NCBI GenBank assembly: GCA_013180625.2
Contig: SNVD02004677.1
Location: 1-64,000 of the forward strand
Source of the DNA: Boswellia sacra
Lineage: Eukaryota; Streptophyta; Magnoliopsida; Sapindales; Burseraceae
Length of the DNA: 64,000 nucleotides
Direction: 5' to 3'
Shown here: one piece after another, positions 1-47,602 of the stretch
Position numbering within the stretch: position 1 is the first letter of the stretch
How the letters are laid out: each line of letters opens with the position of its first letter
Notes under the pieces: model-generated
Told to the model about the DNA's origin: nothing
The model's database searches: none
Seen by the model: only the letters and a program-made list of their open reading frames with translations
Program-made: the position numbers and the translations under genes

Positions 1-568
1 TACTGGCTGAAAGAAAGATTCATGTGGTTTATGGGGGAGGGAGCCTCGGGTTAATGGGTTGTGTGTCAACAGCTGCACATGTAGGAGGTACTCAAGTTTT
101 AGGAGTTATTCCTAAAGCTTTGGCTGTACAAAGTATTGTTGGAAAAAACGGTTGGGAAGGAGTTACAGGTCTCCTCTATGCATGAACGCATGTGGCACAT
201 ATTGCACACATCATATTCAGAGCCTTTATGCAGTTTTACCAGGTGGCTTTGGCACTACTTGAAAGAAATTTTTCAAACTTTGCCTCTTGGGCCACCACTG
301 AAATTCCATCAAAAAAACCCATGTAGGTTTGTTGAATTGTCAAAAATTTCTTTGGATGCCTTTTGATTAAGTTTTTGTTGATGCAGCTGTGAAACAGAAT
401 TTTATCCCTCATTCAGCGAGAAAGATCCTTATTTCTGCCACTTCTGCTGGTGAGCTACTTGACAAATTACAAGAAGTTGAGTATGAACCTGACCCAGCTA
501 GTACTCTAATTAATTGGGCAGGAGGGCAAAACAAAAAGTGCAAATTGGATTTGAATCTCCGTTTGTAA
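1..568 (+). pseudogene. LOG-like cytokinin riboside 5'-monophosphate phosphoribohydrolase, broken copy inside element A
   Basis: LOG enzymes release active cytokinin bases from their nucleotide precursors in the cytosol. The visible part starts inside the N-terminal half with the VYGGGSLGLMG nucleotide-binding loop (from about base 27). It runs through VLGVIPKAL, SSMHERM and a C-terminal block that ends in a TAA at 566-568. An extra A near base 148 shifts the frame, and further small indels hit the region after SSMHERM, so no single frame reads through. The loop PGGFGT, the family PGGxGTxxE signature, is still present near 239-256 just before an indel. No introns are seen. The copy is homologous to the better one at 31659-32309 and sits at the same place relative to its LTR. 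It is a pseudogene; the identification is firm, the substrate is by family only. Confidence 0.88.
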
Positions 569-1943: not shown

Positions 1944-3327
1944 TGATGAAACACTTAAATATGCATGTTTAATAAGAGTTTAGTTCATCATATTGCATTA
2001 ATAGTGTCATTAAATTCCTCAACTTAAGCATATTTATAGCATTTGCATCTTCGGAATTAATTTCTCTTAATTTTGGTTTTGTTACAGGTTCGGTAAAATG
2101 GGCATAACTCTCTATTTATAGATCAGAATGGTGCAATTCTTAATGTTTTGGAAAGCTGATTTAATTGTCTACAAGATTTCATTTCACAAGCATCATCAAA
2201 TTCGGGCTCTTAGTGGACCAAAATTGGGCTTGAAGTGAACCCATCTACAGTCTCGGTCCCAGTCTGACCAGGCCTCAGTATTTGGACCGTATCTCTCAAA
2301 ATACGTATCCAAATTGTGCAAATCAATATGTTCTAGAAAGCTGAGAGAAATATCTACAACTTTCATGAAGACATGTGATTAAAATTCACAACATTTCGAT
2401 GTCAAAATTGATGGTCAAAGTCGTTGCCTAATGATCCCAATTGTCAAAGATATTTACAACTAATATTTGACAATTATGCCCTTGTAATTTGACAAGTTTG
2501 CCCCTGGATGTATCTATAAATAGAGGTGCCTTGTGACCCATTAGGGCATCTTGGCTTTTGCTGGAACATTTTGGCTTTGGCTAGGATCTTGTATTGTGTT
2601 TTGTGTGTTTATGTTATTAATGAATTTCCTTTTTCTTACATTTTATTTTCTTTCTATTATAATGTTCTTCTAATTTCTTTTTGCTAAGGTGAAAGGGTGA
2701 AACCCTTGATATGAGAATAAGGATTCTCTAACCCTTAATATGTGCTTAATAATCTTAATCTTATAATGTTTATTCAATATGATTTATATTTAATTTCTTA
2801 ATCAAACTTGACACCACTCGTAAAGTGGAGGTCTTGATCCATTGTCGACAATCCTTGGCACATCAAATGCTTGGATCCTTTCTAGCTGATGTATGGTTCT
2901 TCCTTACCGACACGAATCTAGTTAGGAACCTTGATTTGTTGTAGACATATGGTGATTGGCACATTGGATGCTTGAACCCATTTACAAGAAGTGGTATAAA
3001 TATTGGTAATGAAACAAATATAATTCATATAACTAAAATGGGTTGTTTATCCTTATTCGAAATATCAAGGGCGGATCCCCTAACCTTAGCTCTCATTATT
3101 ATTGTGTTAATTTCTCTTGTGTTTTAGTTATTTTTATTTATTAACTTGTTCCTTACTTTTACTTGTTGATATTATCTTGTCACCTCTTCGAATCATCCAT
3201 ATCATATTTGCTTAGCTTATAATTTGTAACGCTTAAATTCCCTTCCTTGTGGATCGACCCCGGTCTTACCGGGTTTATTACTTCGACACTCCTATACTTG
3301 GGAGACAATCCTTTTTCGGATGTGTCA
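1944..3327 (+). repeat. 3' LTR of element A
   Basis: 1384 bases from TGATGAAACAC to GGATGTGTCA. A TATAAATA box at 2515-2522 would set the U3/R border. Near the end lies the CCCGGT-CTT-ACCGGG hairpin shared by all five LTRs of this family in the window. The length equals that of the right LTR of element D. Confidence 0.93.
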
Positions 3328-11741: not shown

Positions 11742-13139
11742 TGATGAACACTTAAATATGTATGCTTAATAAAAGTTTAATTCATCATATTGCATTAATA
11801 GTGTCATTAAATTCCTCAACTTAAACATGTTTGTAGTCTTTGCATCTTTGGAATTAAGTTTCTCTTCATTTTGATTTTGTTATAGGTTCGGTAAAATGGG
11901 CATAACTTTCTATTTATAGATCAGAATGGTGCAAATATTAATGTTTTGGAAAGATGATTAAATTATCTACAAGATTGCATTTCCATGTACCATCAAATTC
12001 AGGCTCTTAGTGGACCAAACATGGGCTTGAAGTGAACCCATCTACAGTTTCAACCCAGCCTGACCATACCTCAGTATTTTGACTATATCTCTCAGAATAC
12101 GTATCCAAATCATATGAATCAAGATGTTCTAGAAAGATGAGAGAAATATCTACGACTTTCATGAAGATATGTGATTAAAATTCACAATAATTCAAGGTCA
12201 CAATCGGTGGTCAAAGTCGGTTCACCTAATTACCCCAATTGTCAAAGTTGGTGCATCTAATATTTGACAATTATTCCTTTGTAATTTGACAAGTTTGCCC
12301 CTGAATGTATCTATAAATAGAGGTGCCTTGTGACCCATTAGGGCATCTTCGCCTTGGCTGGAATATCTTAGCCTTGGCTGGGATCTTGTATTGTGTATCT
12401 CTTGTTATTTTCTCTCTTGTATTTTAATGTTATTAATGAATTTCCTTTTTCTTGCATTTTGTGTTCTTTCTCTTATAATGTCTTGCTAATTTCTCTCTTG
12501 CTAACGTGAAAGGGTGAAACCCTTGATATGAGAATAAGGATTCTCTAACCCTTAATATGTGCTTAATAATCATAATCTTATGTTGTTTATATGATTTATA
12601 TTTATTTTCTTAATCAATCTGGACACCACTCGTAAAGTGAAGGTCTTGATCCATTGTAGACAATCCTTGGCACATCAAATGCTTGGATCCTTTCTAGATG
12701 TCGTATGGTTCTTCCTTACCGACATGAATCTAGTTAGGAACCTTGATTTATTGTAGACATATGGAGATTAGAACATTGGATGCTTGAACCCAATTACAAG
12801 AAGTGGTATAAATATTGGTAACGAAACAAATATAATTCATATAACTAAAATGGGTTGTTTATCCTTATTCGAAATATCAAGGGCGGATCCCCTAACCTTA
12901 GCTCTTATTATAATTGTGTTAATTTCTCTTGTGTTTTAGTTATTCTCATTTATTAACTTGTTCTTTACTTATACTTGTTGATATTATGTTGTCACCTCTT
13001 CAAATCATCCATATCACATTTGCTTAGCTTATAATTTGTAACACTTAAATTCTCTTCCTTGTGGATCGACCCCGGTCTTACCGGGTTTATTACTTCGACA
13101 CTCCTATACTTGGGAGACAATCCTTTTTCGAAGGTGTCA
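11742..13139 (+). repeat. 5' LTR of element C
   Basis: 1398 bases, TGATGAACAC to AAGGTGTCA. TATAAATA at 12312-12319 is the likely core promoter. Short open frames inside (for example minus 12992-13183) recur in every LTR of the family and are not genes. Confidence 0.95.
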
Positions 13140-13145
13140 AGTTTT

Positions 13146-13163
13146 TGGCGCCGTTGCCGGGGA
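13146..13163 (+). promoter_or_regulatory. Primer binding site of element C, tRNA-Asp type
   Basis: TGGCGCCGTTGCCGGGGA, six bases after the LTR end, is complementary to the 3' end of plant tRNA-Asp as used by Athila-type elements. Element D has the same site at 38780-38797 on the minus strand. Confidence 0.9.
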
Positions 13164-13419
13164 AGGTAAAATTTGGCGTACAAAATTGTAAGTATTTTCT
13201 TTCCCCATTTCTATTTTTATTTTTGTTGCATATGTTCATCTTTTCTTTTCCCATTTCTATTTTCATTTTTCTTGTATGTGTACATCTTTTCTCTCCCTAT
13301 TTCTATTTTTATTTTTCTTGCATGTGTCTATCTTTTCTTTCTCTTTGCATTAGTTTGTAGAATTGTTAGAAGTGACTCATCTTCTTTAAACACATGCGTA
13401 AACCCAACTAAGAACATAA

Positions 13420-15399
13420 ATGGATTGCATGAATCTTATGAGAACTTGTGCACAATCATGCATAGTCTTCCCTCATGATGCAATATATTTCGACAACGAA
13501 TCAGATCTCATTCAATTCTTACCCCACTTTCATGGCCTAGATGTTGAAAATCCATTTTTGCACTTGAGAGAATTTAAAGAGTTTTGCAATACCTATAGTG
13601 ACCTAAATTATAGCATAAACATCTTTAGATTAAAGCTTTTTCCTTTTTCTTTAAAAGATAAAGCTAAAACATGGCTACAAAATCTTAGGTCAGAATCCAT
13701 TATCTCATGGGATGAAATGCAACAAGAATTTCTGAAAAAATTCTTTCCTCCCTATAGAACAAATTCTCTCAAAAGGCAAATCATCAATTTCACTCAAAAA
13801 CAAGGAGAGACCGTTTACCAATGTTGGGATAGGTATAAAGCATTGCTTAATACTTGTCCTAACCATGGTTTGGAAACATGGAGACTAGTTTTAATTTTCT
13901 ATGAAGGTATTACACGTCAAGCTAGGCAAATGGTAGAATTAATGTGTAATGGACAATTTGAAAATAAAGACCCTGATGAAGCCATGGATTACCTAGACTT
14001 GCTAGCAAAACATGCCCAAAATTGGAACAATGTTGGCAACTATGAAGTACCAAGAACATCTAGTAGAGGCATTTATAACTTTAGGGAGAATCATGATCTT
14101 CATGCTAAATTTACATCCCTAGCTAGAAAAGTCGAGGATTTAGAAATGTGGTCTATGCAAGAAATTGTCTGTCACGCTTGTAATTCTGGTGATCATCCAA
14201 CGGATGATTGCCCAATTGTGCCTACCTTTAGGAAAAGCCTCTATGAGCAAACCAATGATTTAAACACTTTTCAAAGGTCAAATCCTAATCTTTACTCACA
14301 GAATTTTGGATGGAAAAATCACTTGAATTCTAATTGGAGGAATGATAATAATGCACAATTTTATCAACCTCCCTTTCAATCATATCAAAATTTTCAAAAA
14401 TCTCATGATCATGCATCTTATGAGGATCTTGAAGAAACATTGAATTCATTCATTGCAAAGTAAGAGGCTTTTAATAGTCAAACTGTTCAGACTATGGCGA
14501 ACTTGAACGATGCTCTTGAAAAACTTGCATTTGCACTTAGTCCTCGTGAGAAAGGTGAGTTTCCATCTCAACTAGAGCCAAACTCCATCAATCCACATGT
14601 GAGTAATCCAAGTGGCCAACATCTAGATGAAGATTCGGTAAGTACTCTTCACGGTGGTAAGGTTGATAAAAAACATATTCTTAGCCCTTATGAGAAAGAT
14701 GATGAATCAATCTCAAAGGGTAAGGAAGAGGTTAATAAACCTACACCTAACAAGGACGAGATCGAATCCTCACTTATGTCCTCATGTCATCATGCAAAGG
14801 AACTTAACCAAAACTTTGACATTAATGAATTTTTCAAGCATGATGAAAGTGAGGAAACTAAAACTAATGTGGAAGACTATATCCAAAATGAGAATTTTTC
14901 AAGTCATTCAGAAATCGGGTTAACTAGCTCATTAGAACCAAGTATGCAACTAGTGCTCATTAATTCTAAAGAATTCTCATTATTTGATTCTATACAGGTA
15001 AAGGAGATTAAGAGTTGGGAGCCATGCTTTGAAAAAAGGCAGAAAGAAACATCCGCACTCAAGAATGCATGCCTCAAGGACAAACAAACTCAATCAGTGG
15101 TAATCTCTTCCATTCTCACAAATAAAGGAAAAAGAGAGGTACCACCTCAATGGCATATTTTTGACCGTGGTAAATTACTTTCAAAGAGATTCCTCTTTTG
15201 GCCTTTTTTCACGACTAACCAAATTTTATCCGTTTGTGCCATATTTTCATTTTTATTCTTGATTTTTGCTATCATTTCTAGTTTGTTCTTATTTTATTTT
15301 ATGTGCTTTTATTTTATTTGTGTGTTTGCATTTTGTTTTCCGGTCAAGTGGCGGATACGGTACTCCGTGACTTTTAAAGTCGGTTTTTCAGTTCCCTAA
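13420..15399 (+). pseudogene. Gag of element C fused to a membrane-like tail; one nonsense codon
   Basis: One frame of 659 sense codons with a single TAA at 14461-14463. Residues about 20-200 are the gag core (WLQNLRSESIISWDEM, NSLKRQIINFTQKQG, YQCWDRYKALLNTCPNHG). A CCHC zinc knuckle CHACNSGDHPTDDC lies near residue 250. After the stop comes a polar, acidic linker, a remnant of the stretch before RT in D, and then about 35 mostly hydrophobic residues (FSFLFLIFAIISSLFLFYF) near the C-terminus that look like membrane segments. The N-terminus is shorter than in D, and the first codons are shifted. The gag core forms the particle; the tail is probably sequence joined by the internal deletion. 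Confidence 0.85.
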
Positions 15400-16928
15400 A
15401 AACTGTTGCTCACCTTGCATCAATTTTCTTTTCTTCTCTCTCATTTTCTTCATAGTCTTGGGAATCTGACTCAAAACGACCCTGTTTGCCAGTTTATAAG
15501 AAAACTGGATGGGAAGCATATCCCCAACTCATAGAAGGTGTTTAAGCCATTTCTGGACGTAAAACCAGAGGAAGATGTGAGCCACAGTCACAACTACCTA
15601 TACATATGCATGTGTGCCATCAATTTTTAAATTTCTTGTCTTTTATTTTATTTGTAGCATTTTATTCTATGAGTCTTTCAGGTCGTCTCTCTTGAATAAA
15701 GAAGCTTCAGGTAATGTCTCCTATACTTTATCTCTCTACATTTAAACATTGAGGACAATGTTTCATTTGGTTGGGGGGAAGGATAGTAGACATAAGTGTG
15801 TCTTGAAATTTTATTTTTTCTTGCAAAAAAAAAAAAAAGAGAGTTAGTAATTAGATTCAGAGTGCGGTGTAAGGAGTTCAAATCCTCTTGAGACGCATTC
15901 TAGGTCAGGAATGGCAGAGTATGGAGGGCCAGTTTGAACTCTTGAAACCCATTCTAACCAATTTGTCATTTTATTTTGATCTTATGAACTCATTTTAGCT
16001 AACTTGATATTATTTAGACTTGATTTTTGAATTTTATAACAAGGAGGTCTTATTCATTTCACTTTGAATTATTCAAATCTATGAACTCTCACAACCTTAT
16101 CATTTAATAAATTGTGTGCTTATGTACTCGTTAAGCAAGTATTCATGAACCTTTCTTCACACACACACACATACCTTGATGCATGATTGTGGGTGGCGAA
16201 ATGAAATGTTGCAATATTTGAGTTCTTTTGTTTTGTTTAGGATAACAACACAAAGGAAGGGGAAAGTTAAAAAAAGAAAAAAAACAAAAAAAGAGGAAAA
16301 AAAGAGAGAAAGCAATTGTGGATAAGTTTGGTCTCGTAGCCTCCTTAATTCGAGCAATTAAGCCCGAGGGGTGCCTCAACACCTAATACCTTAAGACCAA
16401 CTGGTTTGGGAGCTGTTGGCCCAAAGCTCGCAACATGGATTAAGCAGAAAGCTTAATGGGATTGAACATTGCACTATTCACAAGTTTCTAAGCAAAAATA
16501 AAGCATCGGCAACCCGAGTCGTTAAGCTCGTAGGGATGTCTTAACACCTAATGCCCTAAGGCCAACTGGTCTGGGAGTCATTAGCCTAAGGCTCGCTACA
16601 TGGGTTAAAGATGCATTCCTTCAAAAAAAAAAAAAGAAAGAAAAGAAGAATATATATATATATATATATAATGAATAAATGCCCCCTACCTAAGGTTGTT
16701 AGCCTTAACAAATATTAGAACCGATATGGCTTCTTTCTAAAAAGCCCCATAGTCATGTGTTGACTGAGCACAAAAAGAAGGTTTATTGATATCTTGACTG
16801 AAGGGTACATGAGTCATAAAAAAAAAATTGGTTGAGAGTTTGTTTATTTGGATAAAATCAAGGAGAGTGCAATAATGATCACCTTGGATGTAAAATTCTA
16901 TAAATCACTTCTAAATAATAACGCTTTA
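15400..16928 (+). other. 3' region of element C, with accessory-ORF remnant and no LOG
   Basis: 15455-15534 encodes the last 26 codons of the accessory ORF seen in D (SLGNLTQNDPVCQF... to a TAG). The sequence then runs through the GTGTGCCATCA block that in D precedes the LOG cassette and passes directly to the CTTGTCTTTTATTTTA block that in A follows LOG. So no LOG sequence is present. The 95-base repeat pair is at 16351-16445 and 16514-16608. The rest is homopolymer-rich. Confidence 0.8.
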
Positions 16929-16964
16929 ATTGCTAGGGACTAGCAATAATCTGGTTGGGGGGTG
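16929..16964 (+). promoter_or_regulatory. Hairpin and polypurine tract of element C
   Basis: ATTGCTAG/CTAGCAAT inverted repeat (16929-16947) and GGTTGGGGGGTG against the LTR, identical in layout to A and D. Confidence 0.85.
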
Positions 16965-18361
16965 TCATGAACACTTAAATATGTATGCTTAATAAGAGTT
17001 TAATTTATCATATTGCATTAATAGTGTCATTAAATTCCACAACTTAAGCACGTTTGTAGTCTTTGCATCTTTGGAATTAAGTTTCTCTTAATTTTGGTTT
17101 TGTTACAGGTTTGGTAAAATGGGCATAACTTTCTATTTATAGATCAGAATGTTGCAAATATTAATGTTTTGGAAAGATGATTAAATTATCTACAAGATTG
17201 CATTTCACAAGTATCATCAAATTCGGGCTTTTAGTGGACCAAAAATGGGCTTGAAGTGAACCCATCTGTAGTTTCGACCCAGCCTGACCATACCTCAGTA
17301 TTTTGACTATATCTCTCAGAATACGTATCCAAATTATATGAATCAAGATGTTCTAGAAAGACGAGAGAAATATCTACGACTTTCATGAAGACATATGATT
17401 AAAATTCACAATAATTCAAGGTCAAAATTGGTGGTCAAAGTCGGTTCACCTAATTACCCCAATTATCAAAGTTGGTGCATCTAATATTTGACAATTATTC
17501 CTTTGTAATTTGACAGGTTTGCCCCTGAATGTATCTATAAATAAAGGTGCCTTGTGACCCATTAGGGCATCTTGGCCTTGGCTGGAATATCTTAGCCTTG
17601 GCTGGGATCTTGTATTGTGTATCTCTTGTTATTCTCTCTTGTGTGTTATTAATGAATTTCCTTTTTCTTGCAATTAGTTTTCTTTCTCTTATAATGTCTT
17701 TCTAATTTCTCTCTTGCTAAGGTGAAAGGGTGAAACCCTTGATATGAGAATAAGGATTCTCTAACCCTTAATATGTGCTTAATAATCATTAATCTTATAA
17801 TGTTTATTCAATATGATTTATATTTAATTTCTTAATCAATCTTGACACCACTCGTAAAGTGGAGGTCTTGATCCATTGTCGACAATCCTTGGCACATCAA
17901 ATGCTTGGATCCTTTCTAGATGATGTATGGTTCTTCCTTACCGACAGGAATCTAGTTAGGAACCTTGATTTGTTGTAGACATATGGTGATTGGCACATTG
18001 GATGCTTGAACCCATTTACAAGAAGTGGTATAAATATTGGTAACGAAGCAAATATAATTCATATAACTAAAACGGGTTGTTTATCCTTATTTGAATTATC
18101 AAGGGCGGATCCCCTAACCTTAGCTCTTATTATTATTGTGTTAATTTCTCTTGTGTTTTAGTTATTCTCATTTATTAACTTGTTCCTTACTTATACTTGT
18201 TGATATTATGTTGTCACCTCTTCGAATAATCCATATCACATTTACTTAGCTTATAATTTCTAACGCTTAAATTCCCTTCCTTGTGGATCGACCCCGGTCT
18301 TACCGGGTTTATTACTTCGACACTCCTATACTTGGGAGACAATCCTTTTTCGGATGTGTCA
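16965..18361 (+). repeat. 3' LTR of element C
   Basis: 1397 bases, TCATGAACAC (mutated TG) to GGATGTGTCA. TATAAATA at 17536-17543. Followed by the TSD ATAGT at 18362-18366. Confidence 0.95.
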
Positions 18362-24805: not shown

Positions 24806-25638
24806 AGCTAGGGTTTCTAAACTGCAAAAATTTTTCAGAATAGAGACAGAGAGATGCGAGACAGGGAAGCAACTGTGGAAGAGGGATTATGTGAACAGGT
24901 AGAAGCCCACAAACTATTTGTTATATATACTAGGCCGATTTTTTAGGAAAATATTGATTTTCAATAAAACTCAATTAATTGTTTTTCCTTTCCAAAAACT
25001 GTCTAATAACTCCCTTCACAATTCAAATCAAATTTGAATTAAATTCAAAAATGGAGTACTAATAGAAAAAGGATTCCCGCAATTGATATTTCTCCCTTTT
25101 AATTCAATAATGCTGACATGGCAAAAATTTGACACATGGACACACAAGTAACTTAATTTTTTGAGAATAAGCACAAAGGATATTGTTATAAAAAAGGTAA
25201 CAGAACACAGTTATTTATATCATAACAGGAATATCTGAATTATCATATTTCTCATTCTAAAGAGCATAATTTTGGATTTGAGGGATTCACACATTTAGGC
25301 TTTATTTTGAAAATATTGAGTAAACAACTAGAGTATCCTTCTCACACACACAAAAGTTAGTCTCAATATAAATTTGCTAAATAATACAGTAGTTTTCACA
25401 CATGTATAGAGGTAGCCCTTTTCCATTTGAGTGGGTGACCTTACCATGTTTCCTAGATACAATGAAGCTACTCTCAATGGATGGCTTTCACACATCATAT
25501 ACTGGTAGCCCTCTCTGTATCTTTATTATTAACTAGTATTAAATTATTCACACAGTTTGTATCTCAACTCAGAAACATGCTAATTTAGAAGGAAAATTAT
25601 GATACTACAGATATCAATAGCATAATAGAATACTGTGT
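24806..25638 (-). other. Spacer between Sirevirus pol and env-like region
   Basis: AT-rich, no open frame worth reporting on either strand. A spacer between pol and the env-like frame is usual in this lineage. Confidence 0.6.
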
Positions 25639-26358: not shown

Positions 26359-28240
26359 TGTTGACCCAGGTATGGCAACCCAAGAGGGGGGGTGAATTGG
26401 GTTTTTATTTATAAAAACAGATTTAGAAAACTTTTCTTGAAAGATCAAAATTATTTAAATCTTTCCTTGAAAACAAAGGTGAAGAAGATAAAAATAGAAT
26501 GCAATCAAGAGAATGGCAAATAAAGAACAATCACAAGTACAAGTAAATATAAAGAGGAAAGGGATAGAGAGAGTGCAAACTCAATTTACGTGGTTCGGCA
26601 AACCTTGCCTACATCCACGGGCTCCTAGCTCCACGAGCTAAGCTTTACACTAAGTTGTAGAAATCTTTACAACTTGCTTGATGAACAACCTCTCCAAGAC
26701 TTTTTCCTTCAACCTTTGATAACACCACACCAAGAGTTCTTCTTGATGAACAACCTCACCAAGGCAACTTCCTTCAACCCTTGACAACACCACACCAAGA
26801 GCTCTTCTTGATGAACAACCTCACCAAGGCAACTTCCTTCAACTCTTGATAACACCACACCAAGAGTTCTTCTTGATGAACAACCTCACCAAGGCAACTT
26901 CCTTCAACCATTGATAACACCACACCAAGAGTTCTTCTTGATGAACAACCTCACCAAGGCAACTTCCTTCAACCCTTGATAACACCACACCAAGAGTTCT
27001 TCTTGATGAACAACCTCACCAAGGAAATAGTTCTCTCAAGGATAACTTTTATCTTTTACAAGAAAATCTCACTCTCACCACAATACAAGAACAAAGATAA
27101 TTTCTACAACAAAAGTATAACTCTCTTCAAAGAGTAGATAAAGAATATAAAAGCTCTCTAGACTTGATATTTCTCTTGTTTTTTGCTTGATAGATGCTTC
27201 TCTTCACTTCTTGAATGCATGGGAGAAGGGCTCCTTTCATAGGCAAATGAGATGAACTTAATCAAGTGAAGATACCAACTCCAAATTTTCTGCCCACCAT
27301 AAAAATTGTAATCTTATCTGCCATTTTTGTCAATGTTCTGTTTGAAATTTGAAAATATGCAAAACAGAAAAGATCTTCAAAATTGAATAAGCTTTCCAAC
27401 GCATCAAGAACCAAGTCATTTGGATATCTGTATCTCAAGATATAGCCAAAATAGCATTCGGTGCTCATGTGACTTGATTTTTCTTCCACCGACTTGCATG
27501 TGTATTATGTCAGCCTTCCATTTGAAATTTGAATTTCTTCAAAGAATATGAAATCTGTTCCATTGAATCATCTTTCCAATTCCACATAAAACAAGTCATT
27601 TGGATATCTCTAACTCAAGATATGGACAAAACATCATTCGATGCTCATATGAGTTGATTTTTCTTCTCTGTGTCAGTCTACCGAATTGCATGTCAATTAT
27701 GTCAGCATTCCATTTGAAATTTGAATTTCTTCAAAACATATGAAATGTTCCTCATTAAGTCCTCTTTGCAATGCCACAAGAATAAAGTCATTTTGATATT
27801 TCTAGCTCAAGATATGTCCAAAAGGGTATTTGGTGCTCATGTCAACTGCTTCCATTTGTCTTTCAAATTGCATGATGATTTGGACAAGCTTGCACTTGAA
27901 TTTTGAATTTCTTTAAAACATATGAAATGTTATAAATTGAGTAATCTTTCCAAAGGATCAAGAATCATGTCATTTGGACATCTATAGAGATATATATGAC
28001 CAATTGATTGAACATTACTCATGTGTCACATTCCTTGAGTCAAACCTTGTTCTTAAACTTTGGTGCCTTTAACATGTAGTCTTCTCCTTAGCTTCAACAC
28101 TTCATTTTAATAAGCCTTTTCTTGATTTTACAATTATTTCAATGATATTACTCTTGCACATAAATAAACATGTTAGTAAATCTCAATGAATCAATGTGTA
28201 TTGTTATCATCAAAATTATCATGTAGCCTTAAGGCTAACA
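26359..28240. mobile_element. Element F: solo LTR inserted in Sirevirus pol
   Basis: 1882 bases with TGTTGACCC at one end and GGCTAACA at the other, short TGTT/AACA inverted ends, and a perfect 5-bp duplication GTACT. No PBS, coding domain or second LTR is inside, so it is best read as a solo LTR left by LTR-LTR recombination. A short non-autonomous element is the alternative. It contains the CAACCCAAGAGGGGGGGTGA leader known from plant LTRs, a 65-bp tandem array and, at 27280-27960, several copies of a phrase with TTTGAAATTTGAATTTCTTC and TCATTTGGATATCT. It includes no credible gene. Confidence 0.85.
26680..27025. repeat. 65-bp tandem repeat array in solo LTR F
   Basis: Five full units start at 26680, 26745, 26810, 26875 and 26940, and a partial one at 27005. 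Each begins GATGAACAACCTC and ends CCAAGAGTTCTTCTT. The exact 65-base period and few differences point to recent unequal crossing-over or slippage. Confidence 0.95.
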
Positions 28241-28948: not shown

Positions 28949-30319
28949 TGACACATCCGAAAAAGGATTGCCTCCCAAGTATATGAGTGTCGAAGTAATA
29001 AACCCGGTGAGACCGGGGTCGATCCACGAGGAAGGGAATTTTAGCGCTACAAACTATAAAGTAAACAAATATGATATGGATGATTCAAAGGGATGTCAAG
29101 ATAATATCAACAAGTATGAGTAAAGAACAAATTCTTAAACAATAAATAAGAATAACACAAGAGAAATTCACACAATAATAATGAGAGCTAAGGTTAGGGG
29201 ATCCGCCCTTGATATATCAAATAAGGATAAGTAACCCATTTAGTTATATGAATTATATTTGTTTCGTTACCAATATTTATACCACTTCTTGTAAATGGGT
29301 TCAAGCATCCAATGTGCCAATCACCATATGTCTACAACAAATCAAGGTTCCTAACTAGATTCGTGTCGGTAAGGAAGAACCATACATCATCTAGAAAGGA
29401 TCCAAGCATTTGATGTGCCAAGGATTGTCGACAAGGGATCAAGACCTCCACTTTACGAGTGGTGTCAAGATTGATTAAGAAAATAAATATAAATCATATA
29501 AAATAAACAACACAAGATTACGATTATTAAGCACATACCAAGGCTTAGAGAATCCTTATTCTCATATCAAGGGTTTCACCCTTTCACCTTAGCAGGAGAG
29601 AAATTAGAAAGACATTATAAGAGAAAGAACACAAATTATAAGAAAAAGGAAATTCATTAATAACATAGAAATACAAGAGAGGAAAACAATACAAGATCCC
29701 AGCAAAGGCCAAGATGCCCCAATGGGTCACAAGGCACCTCTATTTATAGATACATTCAGGGGCAAACTTGTCAAATTACAAAGGAATAATTGTCAAATAT
29801 TAGATACACCAACTTTGACAATTGGGGTAATTAGGTGAACCAACTTTGACCACCGATTTTGACCTTGAATTATTGTGAATTTTAATCGTATGTCTTCATG
29901 AAAGTCCTAGATATTTCTCTCAGCTTTCTAGAACATCTTGATTCATATGATTTGGATACGTATTCTGAGAGATATGGTCCAAATACTGAGGTCTGGTCAG
30001 ACTGGGCTGAGACTGTAGATAGGTTCACTTCAAACCCAATTTTGGTCCACTAAGAGCCCGAATTTGATGATACTTGTGAAATGCGATCTTGTAGATATTT
30101 AAATCATCTTTCCAAAACATTAAGATTTGCACCATTCTGATCTATAAATAGAAAGTTATGCCCATTTTACCGAACCTACATCAAAACCAAAATTAAGAGA
30201 AAGTTAATTCAAAGGATGTAAAGACTAAAAATATGCTTAAGTTGAGGAATTTAATGACACTATTAATACAATATGATGAATTAAACTCTTATTAAGCATA
30301 CATATTTAAGTGTTCATCA
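28949..30319 (-). repeat. 3' LTR of element D
   Basis: 1371 bases. On the plus strand it runs from TGACACATCCGAAAAAGG to AAGTGTTCATCA. Minus-strand TATAAATA at 29748-29741. Same family as the A and C LTRs. Confidence 0.95.
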
Positions 30320-30355
30320 CACCCCCCAACCAGTTTATTGCTAGTCCCTAGCAAT
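30320..30355 (-). promoter_or_regulatory. Hairpin and polypurine tract of element D
   Basis: Minus-strand GGTTGGGGGGTG beside the LTR; the ATTGCTAG/CTAGCAAT hairpin is at 30337-30355. Confidence 0.85.
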
Positions 30356-31658: not shown

Positions 31659-32309
31659 TTACAAACGGAGATTCAGATCCAATTTGAACTTTTTGTTTTG
31701 CACTCCTGCCCAATTAATTTGAGTACTAGCTGGGTCAGGTTCATACTCAACTTCTTGTAATTTGTCAAGTAACTCATCAGCAGAAGTGGCAGAAACAAGG
31801 ATCTGTCTCGCCCAATGTGGGATAAAATTTTGTTCTACAGCTGCATCAACAAAACTTATTAAAGGATCAAAGAAATTGTTAACATTCAACAAACCTATGG
31901 GTTTTTGATGGAGGTTCAGTTGGGCCCAAGAGGCAATTTAAAAAATTTCTTCAAAAGTACCAAAGCCACTTGGTAAAGCAATAAAGGCATCTGAATTGAT
32001 GAGCATATGTGCCATGCGTTCATGCATAGAGGAGACTTCTAACTCATGCCCAACCGTTTTTCCAACAATGCTTTCTATAGCCAAAGCTTTAGGAATAACT
32101 CCTAAAACTTGACTACCTCCTACACGTGCAGCTCTGGACACACAACCCATTAACCCGAGGCTACCTCCCCCATAAACCACATGAATCTTTCTTTCAGCTA
32201 GTAGTCTACCAAGATAATTTGTTGCCTCGACAAACTCTTCACTTTTACCTGATCGAGATCCACATAATACACAAATCTTTTGGATTCGATGTTTTGAAGT
32301 TCCCTCCAT
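31659..32309 (-). pseudogene. LOG-like cytokinin riboside 5'-monophosphate phosphoribohydrolase captured by element D; full length with one stop
   Basis: LOG enzymes cleave cytokinin nucleotides to the active base and ribose 5-phosphate. From ATG 32309 the frame runs 216 codons to TAA 31659, close to the normal family length of about 210-220. The only nonsense codon is TAA at 31940-31938 (codon 124). Visible blocks are CVLCGSRSG (residues 13-21), VYGGGSLGLMG (45-55), VLGVIPKAL, SSMHERM, then LPSGFGTFEE (112-121), then GLLNVNNFFD and PEPDP-like EYEPDP near the end. The signature PGGxGTxxE has Ser for the second residue (PSG). No introns, although plant LOG genes have several, so the source was probably an mRNA. 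It lies in sense with the element, 1.3 kb before the 3' LTR. Loss of function is likely but recent. Confidence 0.92.
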
Positions 32310-32530
32310 GTTTATGCAACTCTCTAACTATGTGTGAAGAAGAGAACAAAAGATGTGGTATTTATGGAGTGTAAAAAGGTATGCTAATGATGACATCCAA
32401 ATAGGTAGCTCGGCTGCTTGTCGAAAAATTCAACAATTATGCATAGAAATTCAAAAAAGATGATGAAATAAGACACCATAAGTCAAACAAAAGATACAAA
32501 TTCAAAAATGACAGCTATAAGACATCAAAA
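32310..32530 (-). promoter_or_regulatory. Leader and possible own promoter of the LOG cassette
   Basis: These bases separate LOG from the part shared with element C and belong to the cassette. An ATAAATA box (32365-32359, minus strand) lies about 50 bases before the ATG. Near the outer border ATTCAAAAATGA occurs twice within about 45 bases (around 32480-32540), which may mark the capture junction. Promoter activity is inference only. Confidence 0.4.
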
Positions 32531-32626
32531 TTCAAAAATGATGGCACGCATGCATATGTACAGGTAGTTGTGACTGTGGCTCACATCTTCCTCTGGTTTT
32601 TCGTCCAGAAACGGCTTAAACACCTT

Positions 32627-33118
32627 CTATGAGTTGGGGATATGCTTCCCATCCAGTTTTCTTATAAACTGGCAAACAGGGTCGTTTTGAGTCAGATTCC
32701 CAAGACTATAGCGTTCCTGCTCATCTCGGAATTGTGTCCATAAGTTAAAAATTTCACGCTGCACAAGTCCACAAGAATGCGTCTCAAGAGTCACTCGGAT
32801 ATCATCCAAAGACTCCCTACTCAGTCCATTCTTAATGAACTGTAGTTTATCCTCTCGATTATTAGACAAATATCCCAAGGAGTGGCAACGCTGATTACAA
32901 GTCCATCTTGCACATTTGGGACAAACTTGTAACCTTTTCGCTCTTCGCTTTTTGGCGTAAGAGCTTTTTCCCATACCTGGCATGTGAGAAACAAGATTAT
33001 CTGAAAATTCATAAGAAAATCGAACCTTGGCTTCAATTAACCATCTTACTTCGACAGGAATATCCTTACACATCAACATCCTTAGTCTTTCTGCACGAGC
33101 TTTGTAAATTTTAAGCAA
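32627..33118 (-). CDS. Accessory ORF of element D, 163 residues, unknown function
   Basis: An intact frame from ATG 33118 to TAG 32627, between integrase and the LOG cassette. It is Arg/Lys-rich in the first half (SYAKKRRAKRL), then has a Cys/His cluster VCPKCARWTCNQRCHSLG around residues 64-81 that could bind one zinc ion (C-x2-C-x4-C-x3-C-H), and an acidic, helix-prone C-terminus (LWTQFRDEQERYSLGN). The last 26 codons are preserved in element C. It stands where Athila elements carry an env-like frame, but I see no signal peptide or membrane anchor. Nucleic-acid binding is a guess from composition. Confidence 0.6.
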   Translation of the reverse strand: MLKIYKARAERLRMLMCKDIPVEVRWLIEAKVRFSYEFSDNLVSHMPGMGKSSYAKKRRAKRLQVCPKCARWTCNQRCHSLGYLSNNREDKLQFIKNGLSRESLDDIRVTLETHSCGLVQREIFNLWTQFRDEQERYSLGNLTQNDPVCQFIRKLDGKHIPNS

Positions 33119-33301: not shown

Positions 33302-34640
33302 TTAAAAAGGATTGATTAAAGCAATGGACTCTTCGTTTTGGGCAAAATTTTCAAAGAATGGTTTTAACCGTTGTCCATTAACTTTAAACACATTACCATT
33401 CTTTGGGTTCTCAATTTCAACTGCTCCATGAGGGAAAACATTTTTAACAATGAAAGGCCCAGTCCAACGAGACCGAAGTTTACCAGGAAACAAATGTAAT
33501 CTTGAATCATACAAAAGAATTTTTGTGAAGGTTCAAAAGATTTTCTAACAATGGATTTGTCATGAAAAACCTTCATTTTTTCTTTGTAGATTTTCGAATT
33601 TTCATAAGCCTCATTCCTGATTCTTCAAGTTCACTTAGTTGGAGTTTACGTAACTTGCAAGCATCATTCAAATTTGTGTTGAATGTTTTAATAGCCCAAT
33701 AAGCTTTATGCTCAATTTCCACAGGCAAGTGACAAGGTTTTTCATAAACTAGTCTATAAGGAGACATTCCCAATGATGTTTTAAAAGCAGTTCGGTAAGC
33801 CCAAAGTGCATCATTAAGTCTTAAAGACCAATCTTTACGATTTGGGTTAACCGTTTTTTTTAAGATCTGTTTATCTCCCTATTAGCTAATTCAACTTGTC
33901 CACTTGTTTGTGGGTGATAAGGTGTAGAAATTTTATGGGTTATTCCATATTTCTTCATTAAGGTTTCAAATGGTTTATTACAAAAATGCGTGCCCCCATC
34001 ACTAATAATGGCTCGAGGAATTCCAAATCTACTCAAGATATTCTCTTTCAAGAATTTGACAACTGTTTTGTGGTCATTGTTTCGACATGGAGTTGCCTCG
34101 ACCCATTTTGAAATATAGTCTACTGCAACAAGGATATACATAAAACCAAATGACGGTGGAAAGGGTCCCATAAAATCAATACCCTAACAATCAAAGATTT
34201 CAACAACAAGAATGGGATTCAAAGGCATCATGTTTCTTTTTGAAATGGATCCCAATTTTTGACAATTTTCACACGTTTTGCAAAATGCATGTGCATCTTT
34301 AAATAAGGTGGGCCAATAAAATCCACATTGCAAGATTTTAGCAGCTGTTTTTCTAGATGAAAAATGTCCTCCACATGCATCAGAATGACAAAAGTTAATG
34401 ACACTACTTACCTCATTGTCGGGTATGCATCTTCTTATTATTTGATCCGGACAATATTTGAAAAGATACGGATCATCCCAGTAAAATTTTTTCACCTCGA
34501 TTAAAAATTTTCTTTTGTCTTGAGCTTTCCAATGAGGTGGCATTTTCCCTGTCGCAAGAAAATTTACAATGTTAGCAAACCAAGGTACAGTAGCAACAGA
34601 AAATAAAAATTCATCAGGAAAGGAATCATTGATAGGTGAA
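33302..34640 (-). pseudogene. Integrase of element D
   Basis: Inserts the DNA copy into the host chromosome. The zinc-binding HHCC part is visible ([10 protein letters not shown] then [12 protein letters not shown], about 34400-34260). The catalytic core starts at GIDFMGPFPPSFG and carries D (VAVDYISKWVEA), D (AIISDGGTHFCNKPF) and E ([15 protein letters not shown]). The C-terminal part has [18 protein letters not shown] and [22 protein letters not shown]. Lesions: a TAG at about 34181-34183 just before GIDF, a break near 33860 after the NREI block, and frame changes near 33575 and 33510. Motifs fit the Athila lineage, with no chromodomain. Confidence 0.92.
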
Positions 34641-34689
34641 GTTTCAATTAATGTTTCTGTCGTTAGTCTTGAAAGATGATCAGCAACGA

Positions 34690-35933
34690 CATTTTCGGCT
34701 CCTTTCTTATCCTTTATTGTGATGTTGAATTCTTGGAGCAATAAGATCCACCGTATCAATCTAGGTTTTGCATCCAGTTTAGACATTAAATATCTCACAG
34801 CTGCATGGTCAGTGTAAACAATTGTGGAAGAACCAATTAAATAAGAACGAAATTTGTCCAATGCAAATACTACTGCAAGTAGTTCTTTTTCAGTTGTTGT
34901 GTAATTCATTTGGGCATCATTTAAAGTCCTACTTGCATAGTATATCATATAAGGCTTACCTTCTTTTCTTTGTCCTAAGACAGCAACAACGGCGTAGTCA
35001 CTTGCATTACACATCAATTCAAAAGGCAAGGACCAATCAGGAGATTGCATAATTGGAGTAGTTGTTAAAAGTCTAATTAGTGTATCAAAGGCATTTTGAC
35101 ATTCTTGAGTCCATTCAAAGGAAGTATCTTTTATTAAGAGGTTACAAAGAGGTTTAGATATAGCACTAAAATTTCTTATGAACCTCCTATAAAATCCAAC
35201 ATGCCCTAAGAATGAACAGACCTCTTTAACTGTTTTTGGTGGAGGTAAATGGGAAATTAATTCCACTTTTGCTTTGTCTACTTCAATTCCTTTAGAAGAC
35301 ACCACATGACCTAAGACAATTCCCGAAGTGACCATATAATGACATTTTTCCCAATTCAAAATAAGACCTTTTTCTACACACCTTTTTAGGACTTTTTTCT
35401 AAATTTTCAAGACAATTATCAAAAGAGTTTTCAAAGACAGTTAAATCATCCATGAAAACTTCTAAACAATGCTCAACCATGTCACTGAAAATGCTTAACA
35501 TGCATCTTTGAAAAGTGGCTGGGGAATTACAAAGTCCAAAAGGCATTCTTCTAAATGCAAAAGTGCCAAAGGGGCACGTGAATGTGGTCTTTTCTTGGTC
35601 TTCAAGTGCAATGGGGATTTGATAGTAGCCTGAGTATCCATCAAGAAAGCATTAGTAGGGGTTTCCTGCTACTCTTTCAAGAATTTGGTCAAGAAAGGGT
35701 AAGGGAAAATGGTCCTTTCTAGTGACAGCATTTAATTTTCTATAATCAATGCACATCCTCCAACTAGATGAGACACGAGTTGGCAATAATTCACCCTTTT
35801 CATTTTTAACCACTGTGATGCCAGATTTTTTAGGTACTACTGGTGTAGGGCTTACCCACTTACTATCAGAAATAGGATAGATAATTCCCACATCAAGTAG
35901 TTTGAGAACTTCAGCCCTAATGACCTCTTTCAT
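34690..35933 (-). pseudogene. Reverse transcriptase and RNase H of element D
   Basis: The RT begins MKEVIRAEVLKLLDVGIIYP and shows WRMCIDYRKLNAVTRKDHFP, then a stop at about 35652 in the NPY.CFLD block, PFGLCNSPATFQRCM and the catalytic box FMDDLTVF. A frameshift near 35395 separates this from [13 protein letters not shown], the start of a long intact stretch that contains the RT thumb and RNase H ([53 protein letters not shown]). RNase H catalytic D, E and D residues are present. Few lesions for the length, so it was active relatively recently. Confidence 0.93.
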
Positions 35934-36007
35934 GTGTGGATTTAATCTCCTTTGAGGTTGTTGAGATGTTTTGGCATTTTCTTCTAAATGTATTCTATGT
36001 GTGCAAA

Positions 36008-36397
36008 TTAAAGGTTAATGCCTTTTATATCTTTTAAAGTCCACCCAATTGCATTTTTATGCCTTTTAAGCACTTCTATCAACTTAACTTGTTGTTTGCA
36101 TGTGAGGGATGAAGAAATTACCACCGGATATGTCTGATTCTCCCCAAGATATGCATATTTCAGTCCTTCAGGCAAGGGCTTCAATTCTAACTTGGGAGCT
36201 TCATTTTCCTTGCTTTCATTCATTTGCCCCAATTCTTCAAATCTTGATTTTGAGCCTTTTTCCAATACCTGTGCACAATCCAGTGAGGAACACATATTAG
36301 AAAGATCATGTTCTAGTTCCATACTTAATTCTAACGAATTCACTAAACAAGTTTCCAAAAGGTCAGAAGAACTCCCTTTTTGGATGTGATCTTCCAC
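36008..36397 (-). pseudogene. Protease-RT linker of element D
   Basis: A 129-codon frame rich in Ser, Glu and Leu followed by LPEGLKYAYLGENQTYPVVI and WTLKDIKGI, which lead into the RT. It has no own catalytic motif. The part with LVNSLELSMEL is also recognisable in the gag-linker frame of element C, which shows where the C deletion ends. Confidence 0.75.
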
Positions 36398-36503: not shown

Positions 36504-36973
36504 TCATGACTCATTCCTGCAATTAATCAAAGCATTAGAAGTAGCTAGAAATGGACGCCCTAAAATAACAGGAATTGAATTGCTTACTTCCACTGGTTGT
36601 GTGTCCAAGACGATAAAATCCACTGGGTAAATGAATTTATCGACTTGAAATAACACATCTTCTACTATTCCTCTTGGTACTTTAATTGATCTATCAGCAA
36701 GCAAAAGAGTGACAGAAGTTGGTTTTAACTCACCTAGATTGAGTTTTTGAAAAACCGAGTATGGAAGCAAATTCACACTAGCACCAAGATCAAGTAAGCT
36801 TGTTCAATTTTATGGTCTCCAATAACACATGAAATTGTAGGACAACCTGGATCCTTATATTTCACTGTATTATTATTTTGAAGAATAGAACTTACTTGCT
36901 CAGCTAGAAAGGCCTTCTTTTTCACATTCAGTTTTCTTTTCACAGTGCACAAGTCTTTCAAAAAATTTTGCAT
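36504..36973 (-). pseudogene. Aspartic protease of element D, one frameshift
   Basis: Polyprotein-processing retropepsin. 36973-36773 carries KYKDPGCPTISC. The active-site block LLDLGASVNLLPYS lies right at the frame change near 36790. 36776-36504 carries LADRSIKVPRGIVEDVLFQV, IVLDTQPVE and VILGRPFLATSNALIN. The catalytic Asp of DLGAS is intact. It is closely similar in layout to the protease of B. Confidence 0.88.
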
Positions 36974-37045: not shown

Positions 37046-38733
37046 TCAGAATTGTGAGTTGGCTTCTTTATGTGGCAATGCTTGAGGAAATGGAGGCACA
37101 GATGAGGATTTGGTTTCCTCTTCGCTAGGTGTTGGTTTGGCAACCTCTTCCTGCCCTTTAGAGATCGATTCTTCTTCTTTCTCACAAGGGTTAGGAATAT
37201 GTTTTTCAACAACCTTACCATTGCGAAGGGTCATGACTGACTTGGCTTGGTCAAAATAATGGTTATTTGAACTCCCTGCATTTGAGTTAGATTGATCTTT
37301 GGGTTTTTGCAATGTTTGAGAAGGAAATTTTCCCTTCTCTTGGATGCTAAATATAGATGCAAATTTTGCAAGAGTTTCTGATAAATTTGCTAATGTTTGA
37401 GCAGTTTGGCTATTGAAAGTCTCTTGCTTTGTAATGAATGAATGCAATGTTTCTTGAAGGTCATTCCTAGGAGGAGGAGCATATGCATGATCATGAGAAT
37501 TTTGAAAATTTTGTTGTGCTTGAAAAGGGACTTGTGAAGATTGTGCATGATTGTCATTTTTCCAGCTAAAATTTGGATGATTTCTCCAACCAGGATTGTA
37601 GGTTTGGGAATATGGATTGTGATTTGGCCTTTTGAAAGTGTTCAAGGCATTGGCTTCTTCATGGAGACATTCCCTAAAGGCAGGCAAAGTTGGGCAATCA
37701 TCAGTAGAATGGTCATTGTCATCACAGATGTTACAGACATTTTCTTGAATAGATTTCAATTGACCACTCTTTTTCATCTCTAAAGCCTCGACTTTTCTAG
37801 CTAGGGATGCAAATTTGGCTTGAAAGTCATGGTCTTCCCTAAGGTTGTAAATGCCTTTATTGGATGTCGAGGTTAGGGCCTTGCCTGGTACCTCATAGGT
37901 GCCAGCAGTGTCCCAATTTTGTGCCTTTTCTGCCAAGGAATCTAGGAAGTCAAGTGCTTCCTCAGGGTCTTTTTCTTTAAATTCGCCATTACACATTAAT
38001 TCCACTAATTGCCTATCTTGAGGTGTTAACCCTTCATAGAAGTGTGCAACTATTCTCCAAGTTTCAAACCCATGGTGAGGACAGGTATTAAGTAGTTCCT
38101 TATACCTATCCCAACATTGGTAAAGGGTTTCTCCTTGTTTTGAGAGAAATCAGAAATTTGTCTTTTAAGAGAATTTGTTCTATGGGTAGGAAAAATTTTT
38201 TTCAAAAATTGTTGTTTCATCTCATCCCATGAACTGATGGAATTCGACCTCAAATTTTGTAGCCATGTTCTAGCTTTATCTTTTAAAGAAAAAGGAAAAA
38301 GCTTTAATCTAATGGTGTTTATGCTACAATTTGGGTCAGTGTAGGAGCTACATACCTCTTCAAAGAATTTCAAGTGCAAATATGGGTTCTCCATGTCAAG
38401 GCCATGAAAAGTGGGTAGAAGTCGAGCAAAACTTGGTTTGAAATTGAAATGGATTGAATCTGGAGGAGAAACTACACAAGATGGTGCACTAGTCCTTACC
38501 GGATTCATGTAGTCTCTGAGGGTTCTTCGTTGGTTTTGATCATTTTGTTGCGAACGGTTGTCCCCTTCATCCGTGAATATTTCCTCATGATTGTCGGCCA
38601 TGTTTTCTAAGGAAGATGATGTTTTTCTAACAAGTCTACCACTAGATGTTCGTGACCAAATTTTCATGCAAGAAAGAGAGAAGAAGGGAGAGGAAAAGAT
38701 GAACACACAAAAAAATAAAAAATTTAGATCCAA
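37046..38733 (-). pseudogene. Gag of element D, one frameshift
   Basis: Particle protein in two overlapping frames. 38733-38050 gives the N-terminus and gag core (KDKARTWLQNLRSNSISSWD, then NSLKRQISDFSQ). An indel near 38150 moves the frame to 38005-37046, which continues with LVELMCNGEFKEKDPEEAL, the linker EVPGKALTSTSNKGIYNL and a CCHC zinc knuckle CNICDDNDHSTDDC. The true start is probably a Met after the first hydrophobic residues, since MADNHEEIF-type starts occur downstream. It matches the gag of C block by block. Confidence 0.9.
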
Positions 38734-38779
38734 GATGAGAAAAGAGAATACTTACAATTTTGCACGCCAATTTTTACCT

Positions 38780-38797
38780 TCCCCGGCAACGGCGCCA
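38780..38797 (-). promoter_or_regulatory. Primer binding site of element D, tRNA-Asp type
   Basis: Minus-strand TGGCGCCGTTGCCGGGGA, six bases inside the 5' LTR, as in element C. Confidence 0.92.
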
Positions 38798-38803
38798 AAA
38801 ACT

Positions 38804-40187
38804 TGACACATCCAAAAATAGGATTGCCTCCCAAGTATAGGAGTGTCGAAGTAATAAAACCCGGTGAGACCGGGGTCGATCCACGAGGAAGGGGATTTTA
38901 GCGCTACAAATTATAAGATAAGCAAATGTGATATGGATAATTCGAAGAGGTGACAAGATAATATCAACAAGTATAAGTAAAGAACAAGTTAATAAATGAG
39001 AATAACTAAAACACAAGAGAAAATAACACAATAATAATGAGAGCTAAGGTTAGGGGATCCGCCCTTGATAATTCGAATAAGGATAATTAGCCCATTTTAG
39101 TTATATGAATTATATTTGTTTCATTACCAACATTTATACCACTTCTTGTAAATGGGTTCAAGCATCCAATGTGCCAATCATCATATGTCTACAACAAATC
39201 AAGGTTCCTAACTAGATTTGTGTCGGTAAGGAAGAACCATACATCATCTAGAAAGGATCCAAGCATTTGATGTGCCAAGGATTGTCGACAATGGATCAAG
39301 ACCTCCACTTTACGAGTGGTGTCAAGATTGATTAAGAAATTAAATATAAATCATATTGAATAAACATTATAAGATTAAGATTATTAAGCACATATTAAGG
39401 GTTAGAGAATCCTTATTCTCATATCAAGGGTTTCACCCTTTCACCTTAGCAAAAGAGAAATTAGAAGAACATTATAATAGAAAGAAAATAAAATGCAAGA
39501 AAAAGGAAATTCATTAATAACATAAACACACAAAACACAATACAAGATCCTAGCCAAAGCCAAAATGTTCCAGCCAAGGCCAAGATGCCCTAATGGGTCA
39601 CAAGGCACCTCTATTTATAGATACATCCAGGGGCAAACTTGTCAAATTACAAGGACATAATTGTCAAATATTAGTTGTAAATATCTTTGACAATTGGGAT
39701 CATTAGGCACCGACATTGACCATCAATTTTGACATCGAAATGTTGTGAATTTTAATCACATGTCTTCATGAAATTGTAGATATTTCTCTCAGCTTTCTAG
39801 AACATATTGATTTGCACAATTTGGATACGTATTTTGAGAGATACGGTCTAAATACTGAGGCCTGGTTAGACTGGGCTGAGACTGTAGATGGGTTCACTTC
39901 AAGCCCAATTTTGGTCCACTAAAAGCCCGAATTTGATTATGCCTGTGTAATGCAATCTTGTAGACAATTGAATCAGTTTTCTAAAACATTAAGAATTGCA
40001 CCATTCTGATCTATAAATAGAGAGTTATGCCCATTTTACCAAACCTGTAACAAAACCAAAATTAAGAGGAATTAATTCCAAAGATGCAAATGCTACAAAT
40101 ATGCTTAAGTTGAGGAATTTAATGATACTATTAATGCAATATGATGAATTAAACTCTTATTAAACATACATATTTAAGTGTTCATCA
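38804..40187 (-). repeat. 5' LTR of element D
   Basis: 1384 bases. Minus-strand TATAAATA at 39619-39612 is the likely promoter for the element. The outer flank is CTTAG, not the TTTGG found on the other side. Confidence 0.95.
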
Positions 40188-46990: not shown

Positions 46991-47602
46991 GAGGATTGTC
47001 ACCACTGGCTTCTATCATGATTTCCTTTCATTTTTGCTTCCATGTATGAACTTCTATCATGTACAATAAATGTAAATAGTTTTCAGAAACTTTAGTGAAA
47101 ATTTTCTATTTCTGATTCTATACACTTTGCATATCGTACCAAATTTACATCCAAATTTGTTTAAATTTGTTTCTATATCACCATTTATTCAATTCTGAAT
47201 AAAACTACAAAATTTGGAAGTCGCAGGCTCGAAATCATTCATCAGTCCAGAGGTTGAAGGATCGCACGGAAGGAGGGCCGATGGGCTGTTTAGCCCTAAT
47301 AACCGTTGGCCAGCCATCAAATTGTTAGACGACTGTCAGATAACTAGGCAACTATCAAATAGTTAGTCAACTATCATGGAACATCGATCGGTAGTCAAAT
47401 AGCCGACCGACGGTTCTTCGACAAGTCTCCCCTTTTTTATCTCGGTTTGTGCACTATTTAACTATTTTTACTCTTTGCTACTTCCTTGCACCTTTTCTCT
47501 CATTTCTCGAGATTCCTTTGTCACATTTTTCAACACCTTTTTGCGTCATTCAGCATGTTTGAAGCTTCTTTCCAGATCTTCCAACCTCTTCTAAGGTCTG
47601 TG
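46991..47602. other. Non-coding stretch between PMD gene and LTR copy 3
   Basis: No frame of interest. About 47270-47420 is built from words such as GGCCAGCCATC, CAACTATC and TAGTCAAATAGCCGACCGACGG, which also appear inside the LTR copies (42940-43010, 48980-49110) and at 44630-44720. So a minisatellite-like motif is spread over this element. Confidence 0.55.

Follow-up and report, generated by a model that had tools for sequence, protein, structure and literature searches.

The window analyzed here, a stretch of 64,000 nucleotides of Boswellia sacra DNA, contains a LOG frame within an LTR retrotransposon. The locus raises the question whether this gene is a host sequence that was caught by chance or one that is kept by a family of elements, and what kind of activity its product would have. 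The coordinates of the relevant features are compiled in Table 1.

Table 1. Features of element D and of the related elements A and C in the window
Feature	Position	Strand	Remarks
3' LTR of D	28949..30319	-	K2P 0.082-0.083 to the LTRs of C, closer than to D's own 5' LTR
Polypurine tract of D	30320..30330	-	GTTGGGGGGTG; just before the 3' LTR
LOG frame of D (PF03641)	31659..32309	-	216 codons, one internal stop, C-terminal KLDLNLRL tail
Gap, NABP-like stop to LOG start	32310..32626	-	by eye
Virus-NABP-like zinc-finger frame	32627..33079	-	between integrase and LOG; 150 codons open from ATG
Integrase core and C-terminal part of D	33302..34183	-	three broken frames (33860-34183, 33573-33878, 33302-33532); motifs by eye
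RNase H and integrase zinc-binding domains of D	34184..35398	-	one frame, single RNase H; Pfam
Reverse transcriptase of D	35292..36014	-	two broken frames; motifs by eye
Aspartic protease-like frame of D	36504..36803	-	motif DLGAS by eye
gag of D	37046..38751	-	two overlapping frames (frameshifted); Pfam
Primer binding site of D	38780..38797	-	TGGCGCCGTTGCCGGGGA; read beside the 5' LTR
5' LTR of D	38804..40187	-	closest to the 3' LTR of A, K2P 0.040
Second LOG copy (element A)	1..568	+	truncated at the start of the window; carries 10 small insertions compared with D
3' LTR of element A	1944..3327	+	LTR comparison
Element C	11742..18361	+	LTRs 11742-13140 and 16965-18361, target site duplication ATAGT, gag frame

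The LOG frame of the element designated D extends on the minus strand from an ATG at 32309-32307 to a TAA at 31661-31659 and is interrupted by an internal TAA at 31940-31938, which corresponds to codon 124. Both halves match Pfam PF03641 (2.4e-16 and 1.2e-12), and the whole sequence, with X at the stop, matches the solved LOG structures of Arabidopsis LOG3 (2a33, E 7.8e-59) and also LOG8, so that a chance frame is excluded. The gene lies between D's LTRs, in sense with and 3' of the integrase, whose core is located at 33860-34183 and whose tail ends at 33302. Thus, the Pfam and structure matches together with the LTR coordinates confirm the arrangement given in a preliminary description of this DNA, namely a 216-codon LOG frame with one stop, in sense and 3' of integrase within the LTRs of D. 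The frame is devoid of introns, while host plant LOG genes consist of several exons. Some 50 nt ahead of the ATG, the sequence shows a TATA-like CCATAAATACC, noted by eye as a pattern only. The residues Arg98 and Glu121 are kept, PSGFGT replaces PGGxGT, position 99 is occupied by Met, and Leu119 of the LOG relatives is Phe in D. An intact PGGxGTxxE in a full frame is accordingly absent from D, which has PSG for PGG and the stop at codon 124. Membership in the LOG family is given by the PF03641 domain in D itself and by a LOG fold read solely from the model of the relative P0003.

The domains of D follow the order gag, protease-like frame, reverse transcriptase, RNase H with integrase zinc domain, integrase, NABP-like frame, and LOG. 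Gag, RNase H, the integrase zinc domain, the NABP-like frame, and LOG were identified by Pfam, and protease, reverse transcriptase, and integrase core by eye. D has one RNase H, located before the integrase, and no second one; a second RNase H has been described as the mark of Tat elements, with Athila elements lacking it, and extra ORFs have been reported for most OTA elements (both in excerpts of PMC6317226). Such extra forward ORFs, the NABP-like and LOG frames, are also present 3' of pol in D. On the basis of RNase H count, domain order, and extra ORFs, D can be placed as an Athila-like Ty3/gypsy element. ATHILA ORF-1 (PF03078) found no match among the D-family and other window frames scanned by Pfam, and this ORF has been reported in only 16% of Athila elements (available part of PMC6317226). 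A tRNA gene search of the 64-kb window found none. The primer binding site of D may be of the tRNA-Asp type, a non-Met primer site.

D is a mosaic and not a clean LTR-bounded insertion. Its LTRs of about 1.4 kb differ from each other by a K2P of 0.103, as against 0.040 between its 5' LTR and the 3' LTR of element A, and its 3' region is 94.4% identical to element C and 82.4% to A. Moreover, the flanks of D, CTAAG and CCAAA, do not match, while C is flanked by the target duplication ATAGT. The LTR distance of D does not date its insertion because of this mosaic state. In Arabidopsis, Athila elements are known to recombine with one another (PMC2410132, in the part available). The placement of the LOG inside the LTRs of one element therefore holds in so far as the gene stands between two LTRs, but these are not a sister pair, the flanks differ, and D is a composite. 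Since pol is broken in several places, D is unable to move by itself now.

Two further members of the family are present in the window, and the LOG is found in two of these three elements (A and D, but not C). Element C has a 347-aa gag frame and a perfect 5-bp target duplication and is apparently a non-autonomous derivative of the family; no pol was seen in it, the NABP-like frame has lost its 5' portion, and the LOG is missing altogether. Given that pol and a portion of the NABP-like frame are gone from C as well, C probably arose by deletion and is no test of the value of the LOG. For the same reason, C is less likely to represent an ancestral LOG-free state, the deletion reading itself being unproved. 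The LOGs of D and A show a dN/dS of about 0.61, which is not significantly below 1 (p 0.085; 179 codons, a single pair, with A decayed). If a host LOG had been caught by chance and were carried neutrally as a passive passenger, element copies would decay; the broken state of both the D and A LOGs, the movement of C without LOG and with a clean target duplication, and a dN/dS not clearly below 1 are in line with this.

Apart from this family, the window holds a frame with a Transposase_32 Pfam match (9.3e-23) at 23849-24886 (-) and Transposase_21 (tnp2) and DUF4218 frames at 60368-62274 (+), presumably of a CACTA-type transposon. Diverged direct repeats at 41527-43259 and 47599-49356, which are about 80% identical, are probably the LTRs of a second element, and tandem arrays are located at 26677-27024 (65-bp unit), 58989-59290 (53 bp), and 59284-59724 (about 96 bp).

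A protein search with the D LOG yielded 2502 matches, the best 120 of which were used as relatives. Named sources among these include Xanthoceras, Diplodiscus, Reevesia, Populus, Melia, and Parasponia. As the relatives are predicted proteins of a limited length range and the best 120 of 2502, decayed copies are under-counted. Host LOGs were sampled as the best 120 of about 7998 matches in a search with an AtLOG3 segment; those with numbered names are LOG1, LOG3, or LOG4-like, and AtLOG8 was added. In a FastTree tree of all 243 sequences, the 120 relatives and D stand apart from the 120 host LOGs with a support of 0.909. An IQ-TREE analysis of 50 of the 243 sequences separated 35 element-type tips including D from 13 host LOGs and AtLOG8 with a UFBoot value of 97; this value is 100 for the 32 tips that are left without P0001, P0002, and P0119, and 99 for D together with P0003 and P0005, and AtLOG8 falls inside the host group. 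In these trees, the LOG of D thus belongs to a clade separate from the host LOGs sampled (LOG1/3/4-like and AtLOG8). Mean identity to the 120 host LOG proteins compared is 47% for the D LOG and 50% for P0003. The Xanthoceras proteins P0001, P0002, and P0025, which have duplicated parts, canonical pocket residues, and no tail, are found at the base of the clade and are perhaps a link to the host donor.

Residence of the relatives outside the window in elements is judged by copy number, equal-size contigs, and published reports for Citrus and Populus. Among the 120 relatives, at least 23 cluster rows from Reevesia are spread over 12 chromosome labels and at least 9 from Diplodiscus over 8. Such a scatter is in line with an element gene. 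Three scans of viral contigs found no plant element loci with these LOGs; five viral-contig loci with 32-35% identity to LOG were set aside as too distant to be these element LOGs. With LOG in two of the three window members and many relatives in other plants, the idea that LOG is a repeated passenger of such elements is supported.

A second gene appears to accompany the LOG. Scanned from stop to stop, the NABP-like frame of D matches Carla_C4 with 28.1 bits (cut-off 20.9) and Viral_NABP with 24.9 bits (cut-off 23). It has 329 relatives at an E-value of 0.01 or better, many of the listed ones with a length of about 182 aa, and the best 120 include proteins from Xanthoceras, Rhamnella, Populus, and Orobanche. 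Among 34 aligned relatives, 31 match Viral_NABP and 30 match Carla_C4 at E<=0.001; the predicted structure of one relative (P0121) is poor, with a pLDDT of 61. The frame resembles the NABPs of betaflexivirids in its basic stretch, its Cys zinc-finger block, and its Pfam matches above the curated cut-off, but it occurs in a plant LTR element and among proteins of plant genomes. No report on a carlavirus-type nucleic acid binding protein in retrotransposons, Athila, or gypsy was found in the portions of the literature available, and matches for PF05515, PF01623, Carla C4, or Viral NABP were discarded, as they concern glyoxalase genes by title and abstract and not this gene. Contigs of equal size and with the same source tag occur above 2 kb in both the LOG and the NABP results in two cases (8723 and 2128); for the 26 LOG and 32 NABP contigs compared in this range, two or more matches are expected by chance with a probability of about 0.0008 (simulation). 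Under 100 kb (77 LOG and 111 NABP contigs), four such pairs were found versus 1.14 expected (p 0.025); the pairs at 905 and 1018 were set aside, since contigs of such size have no room for both frames. This suggests, without proof, that the two frames share contigs elsewhere.

These data also bear on the view that the tailed LOGs are an ordinary subfamily of host LOGs, which was captured by elements several times independently. Some Populus members are indeed named 'probable LOGL10' in NCBI records, and a host sample made up of LOG1/3/4-like proteins and AtLOG8 leaves room for such a subfamily. However, many dispersed copies in single genomes, the two cases of NABP-like and LOG frames on equal-size contigs, and a published screen in which LTR elements of Citrus and Populus turned out to contain LOG (sections available of PMC9289625) argue against it, and we consider it rather unlikely.

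Selection on the LOG was assessed by parsimony changes per alignment column inside three groups, with conservation judged on the remaining relatives. Columns were regarded as conserved at 95% or more and as variable under 70%; inner and tip branches were counted, and residue mutability was uncontrolled. Changes per conserved and variable column amounted to 0.73 and 1.45 in the Reevesia group (permutation p 0.001), 0.34 and 0.76 in the Diplodiscus group (p 0.002), and 0.85 and 2.58 in the Populus-like group (p <0.0001), with the middle columns in between. In the sequences compared, changes in amplified families thus avoid conserved sites, as under purifying selection. A similar pattern is found in D: its 39 private residues relative to the four nearest relatives fall into 3 of 60 conserved columns and 36 of 156 others (Fisher p 0.0014). 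This supports the earlier suggestion that the D LOG was functional until recently, as private changes that avoid conserved columns fit function until fairly recently. Furthermore, the relatives keep frames of 216-217 aa and their catalytic residues although their pairwise identity averages about 65% (38 of the 120 compared). Neutral drift is not expected to keep such frames and residues at this divergence, nor to make changes accumulate preferentially in variable columns, as seen in the three amplified families, and C, as a likely deletion derivative, does not speak for a dispensable LOG. Neutral carriage of a passive passenger is thus improbable.

The element-type LOGs differ from host LOGs mainly at the C-terminus and in the substrate pocket. 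An LxLxL motif in the last 14 residues is present in 100 of the 120 listed relatives and in 0 of the 120 listed host LOGs, and a basic stretch in the last 20 residues in 107 of 120 relatives versus 1 of 120 host LOGs. Presumably, basic stretch and LxLxL tail represent a nuclear signal and an EAR-type repressor motif. For the LOG from Corynebacterium, Arg99 and Glu122 have been proposed as catalytic residues, and the prenyl site seems to be made up of Met96, His97, Lys100, Glu125, and Trp129 (excerpts of PMC4979012). Equivalent residues in the relatives were assigned by alignment to this protein. Among the 120 listed relatives, the catalytic Arg98 is kept in 114 and Glu121 in 117, and Gly114 of the PGG position in 111; 12 of 120 have a broken core residue. 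Regarding the prenyl pocket, Met95 (112/120) and Trp128 (118/120) are mostly retained, His96 is found in 52/120, and Lys99 and Glu124 are each found in only 5/120. The latter two are both replaced in 114 relatives, both kept in four, and mixed in two; of the four that retain the pair, three come from Xanthoceras and one is P0119, and none of them has the tail. The predicted structure of P0003, a relative of D and not D itself, has a LOG fold with a mean pLDDT of 78 and a tail of very low confidence, and its best PDB match is 2a33 (TM 0.90 by target). Compared with AtLOG3 (2a33) and AtLOG8 (1ydh), the relatives share fold, PGGxGTxxE, and catalytic Arg/Glu, with D itself having PSG and a stop, while the element LOG is intronless, has Lys and Glu of the prenyl pocket replaced in most relatives, and has gained the LxLxL tail.

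Ordinary cytokinin activation is therefore doubtful for the LOG clade of D, given that 114 of the 120 listed relatives carry other residues at both charged positions of the prenyl pocket, and the same finding casts doubt on the label of a hormone-activating gene used in the preliminary description. That the element spreads a normal cytokinin-activating LOG would agree with the LOG fold modeled for a relative and with the retained catalytic Arg and Glu. Residues alone do not settle activity, since the activities of wheat LOGs vary even where the known residues agree, and these residues did not explain which of the enzymes make iP and which iPR (passages available of PMC11593424). On the other hand, the charged pocket residues are mostly lost, the pocket His is kept in less than half of the listed relatives, and D has Met at position 99 and a stop at 124. 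In our view, a normal cytokinin LOG has only a small probability.

Carriage of LOG by retrotransposons is known. Steinbauerova et al. 2011 reportedly described two Athila-like elements with similarity to LOGL4, in which the LOG is located 3' of pol. YgdH (LOG) domains have also been found in LTR-element consensuses of Citrus sinensis, C. clementina, and Populus trichocarpa, the latter only under a relaxed filter (available sections of PMC9289625, which cites Steinbauerova 2011). As LOG/YgdH gypsy elements of Citrus and Populus are thus published, the system is not a new one, in contrast to what had been proposed for this locus. What D has in common with these elements is a gene with a LOG domain within a Gypsy LTR element; the separate clade, the tail, the altered pocket, selection, and the NABP-like neighbour are absent from the account in these sections of PMC9289625 and are additions beyond the print found. 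A LOG or cytokinin gene was not found mentioned in the accessible part of a 2026 review of gene capture (PMC13317346), nor LOG or LOGL4 in that of PMC7264820, nor LONELY GUY, YgdH, or cytokinin in that of PMC7145672. A comparable case is the AlkB-carrying Gypsy of Phalaenopsis, in which a host-type enzyme gene is likewise kept as an independent frame in a Gypsy lineage; this AlkB is an m6A demethylase with activity in vitro (PMC9289625, in the part available), while the element LOG is known here from sequence.

Taken together, we consider it the best explanation, with a probability of roughly 0.6, that D is dead, a mosaic copy from an Athila-like family in which working members possess an NABP-like and an intronless LOG gene 3' of pol, the LOG having been captured once and kept because it is useful. 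The capture would have occurred long ago, as a spliced copy of a host LOG, which may since have been inherited with the elements because it is helpful to them. It is probable that the element LOG protein still removes the base from a 5'-ribonucleotide, with a substrate that may be other or broader than prenylated AMP. Through its basic stretch and LxLxL tail, the protein could reach the nucleus or be linked to a co-repressor. As to the benefit, the most plausible one would be an altered local cytokinin or nucleotide state in dividing cells leading to the germ line, where new insertions would be inherited. The LOG of D itself would have lost its function after D's last insertion or recombination.

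A further-reaching proposal, which we put forward tentatively and at less than even odds, is that a rosid-wide Athila lineage keeps by selection a two-gene module of a virus-related nucleic-acid-binding protein and a re-tuned LOG-derived hydrolase with a nuclear, repressor-like tail. If true, a plant retrotransposon would possess a set of accessory genes in the style of retroviruses, which acts on the hormone or nucleotide state of the host. To our knowledge, few plant LTR elements with host-derived enzyme genes have been studied beyond detection. Caution is also called for in annotation, since some genomes may list element genes of a different activity under names such as 'LOGL10' or 'cytokinin riboside phosphoribohydrolase'. 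A selected LOG branch with a changed pocket and a virus-like neighbour would show that host-acting accessory genes exist in plant retrotransposons, as they do in retroviruses.
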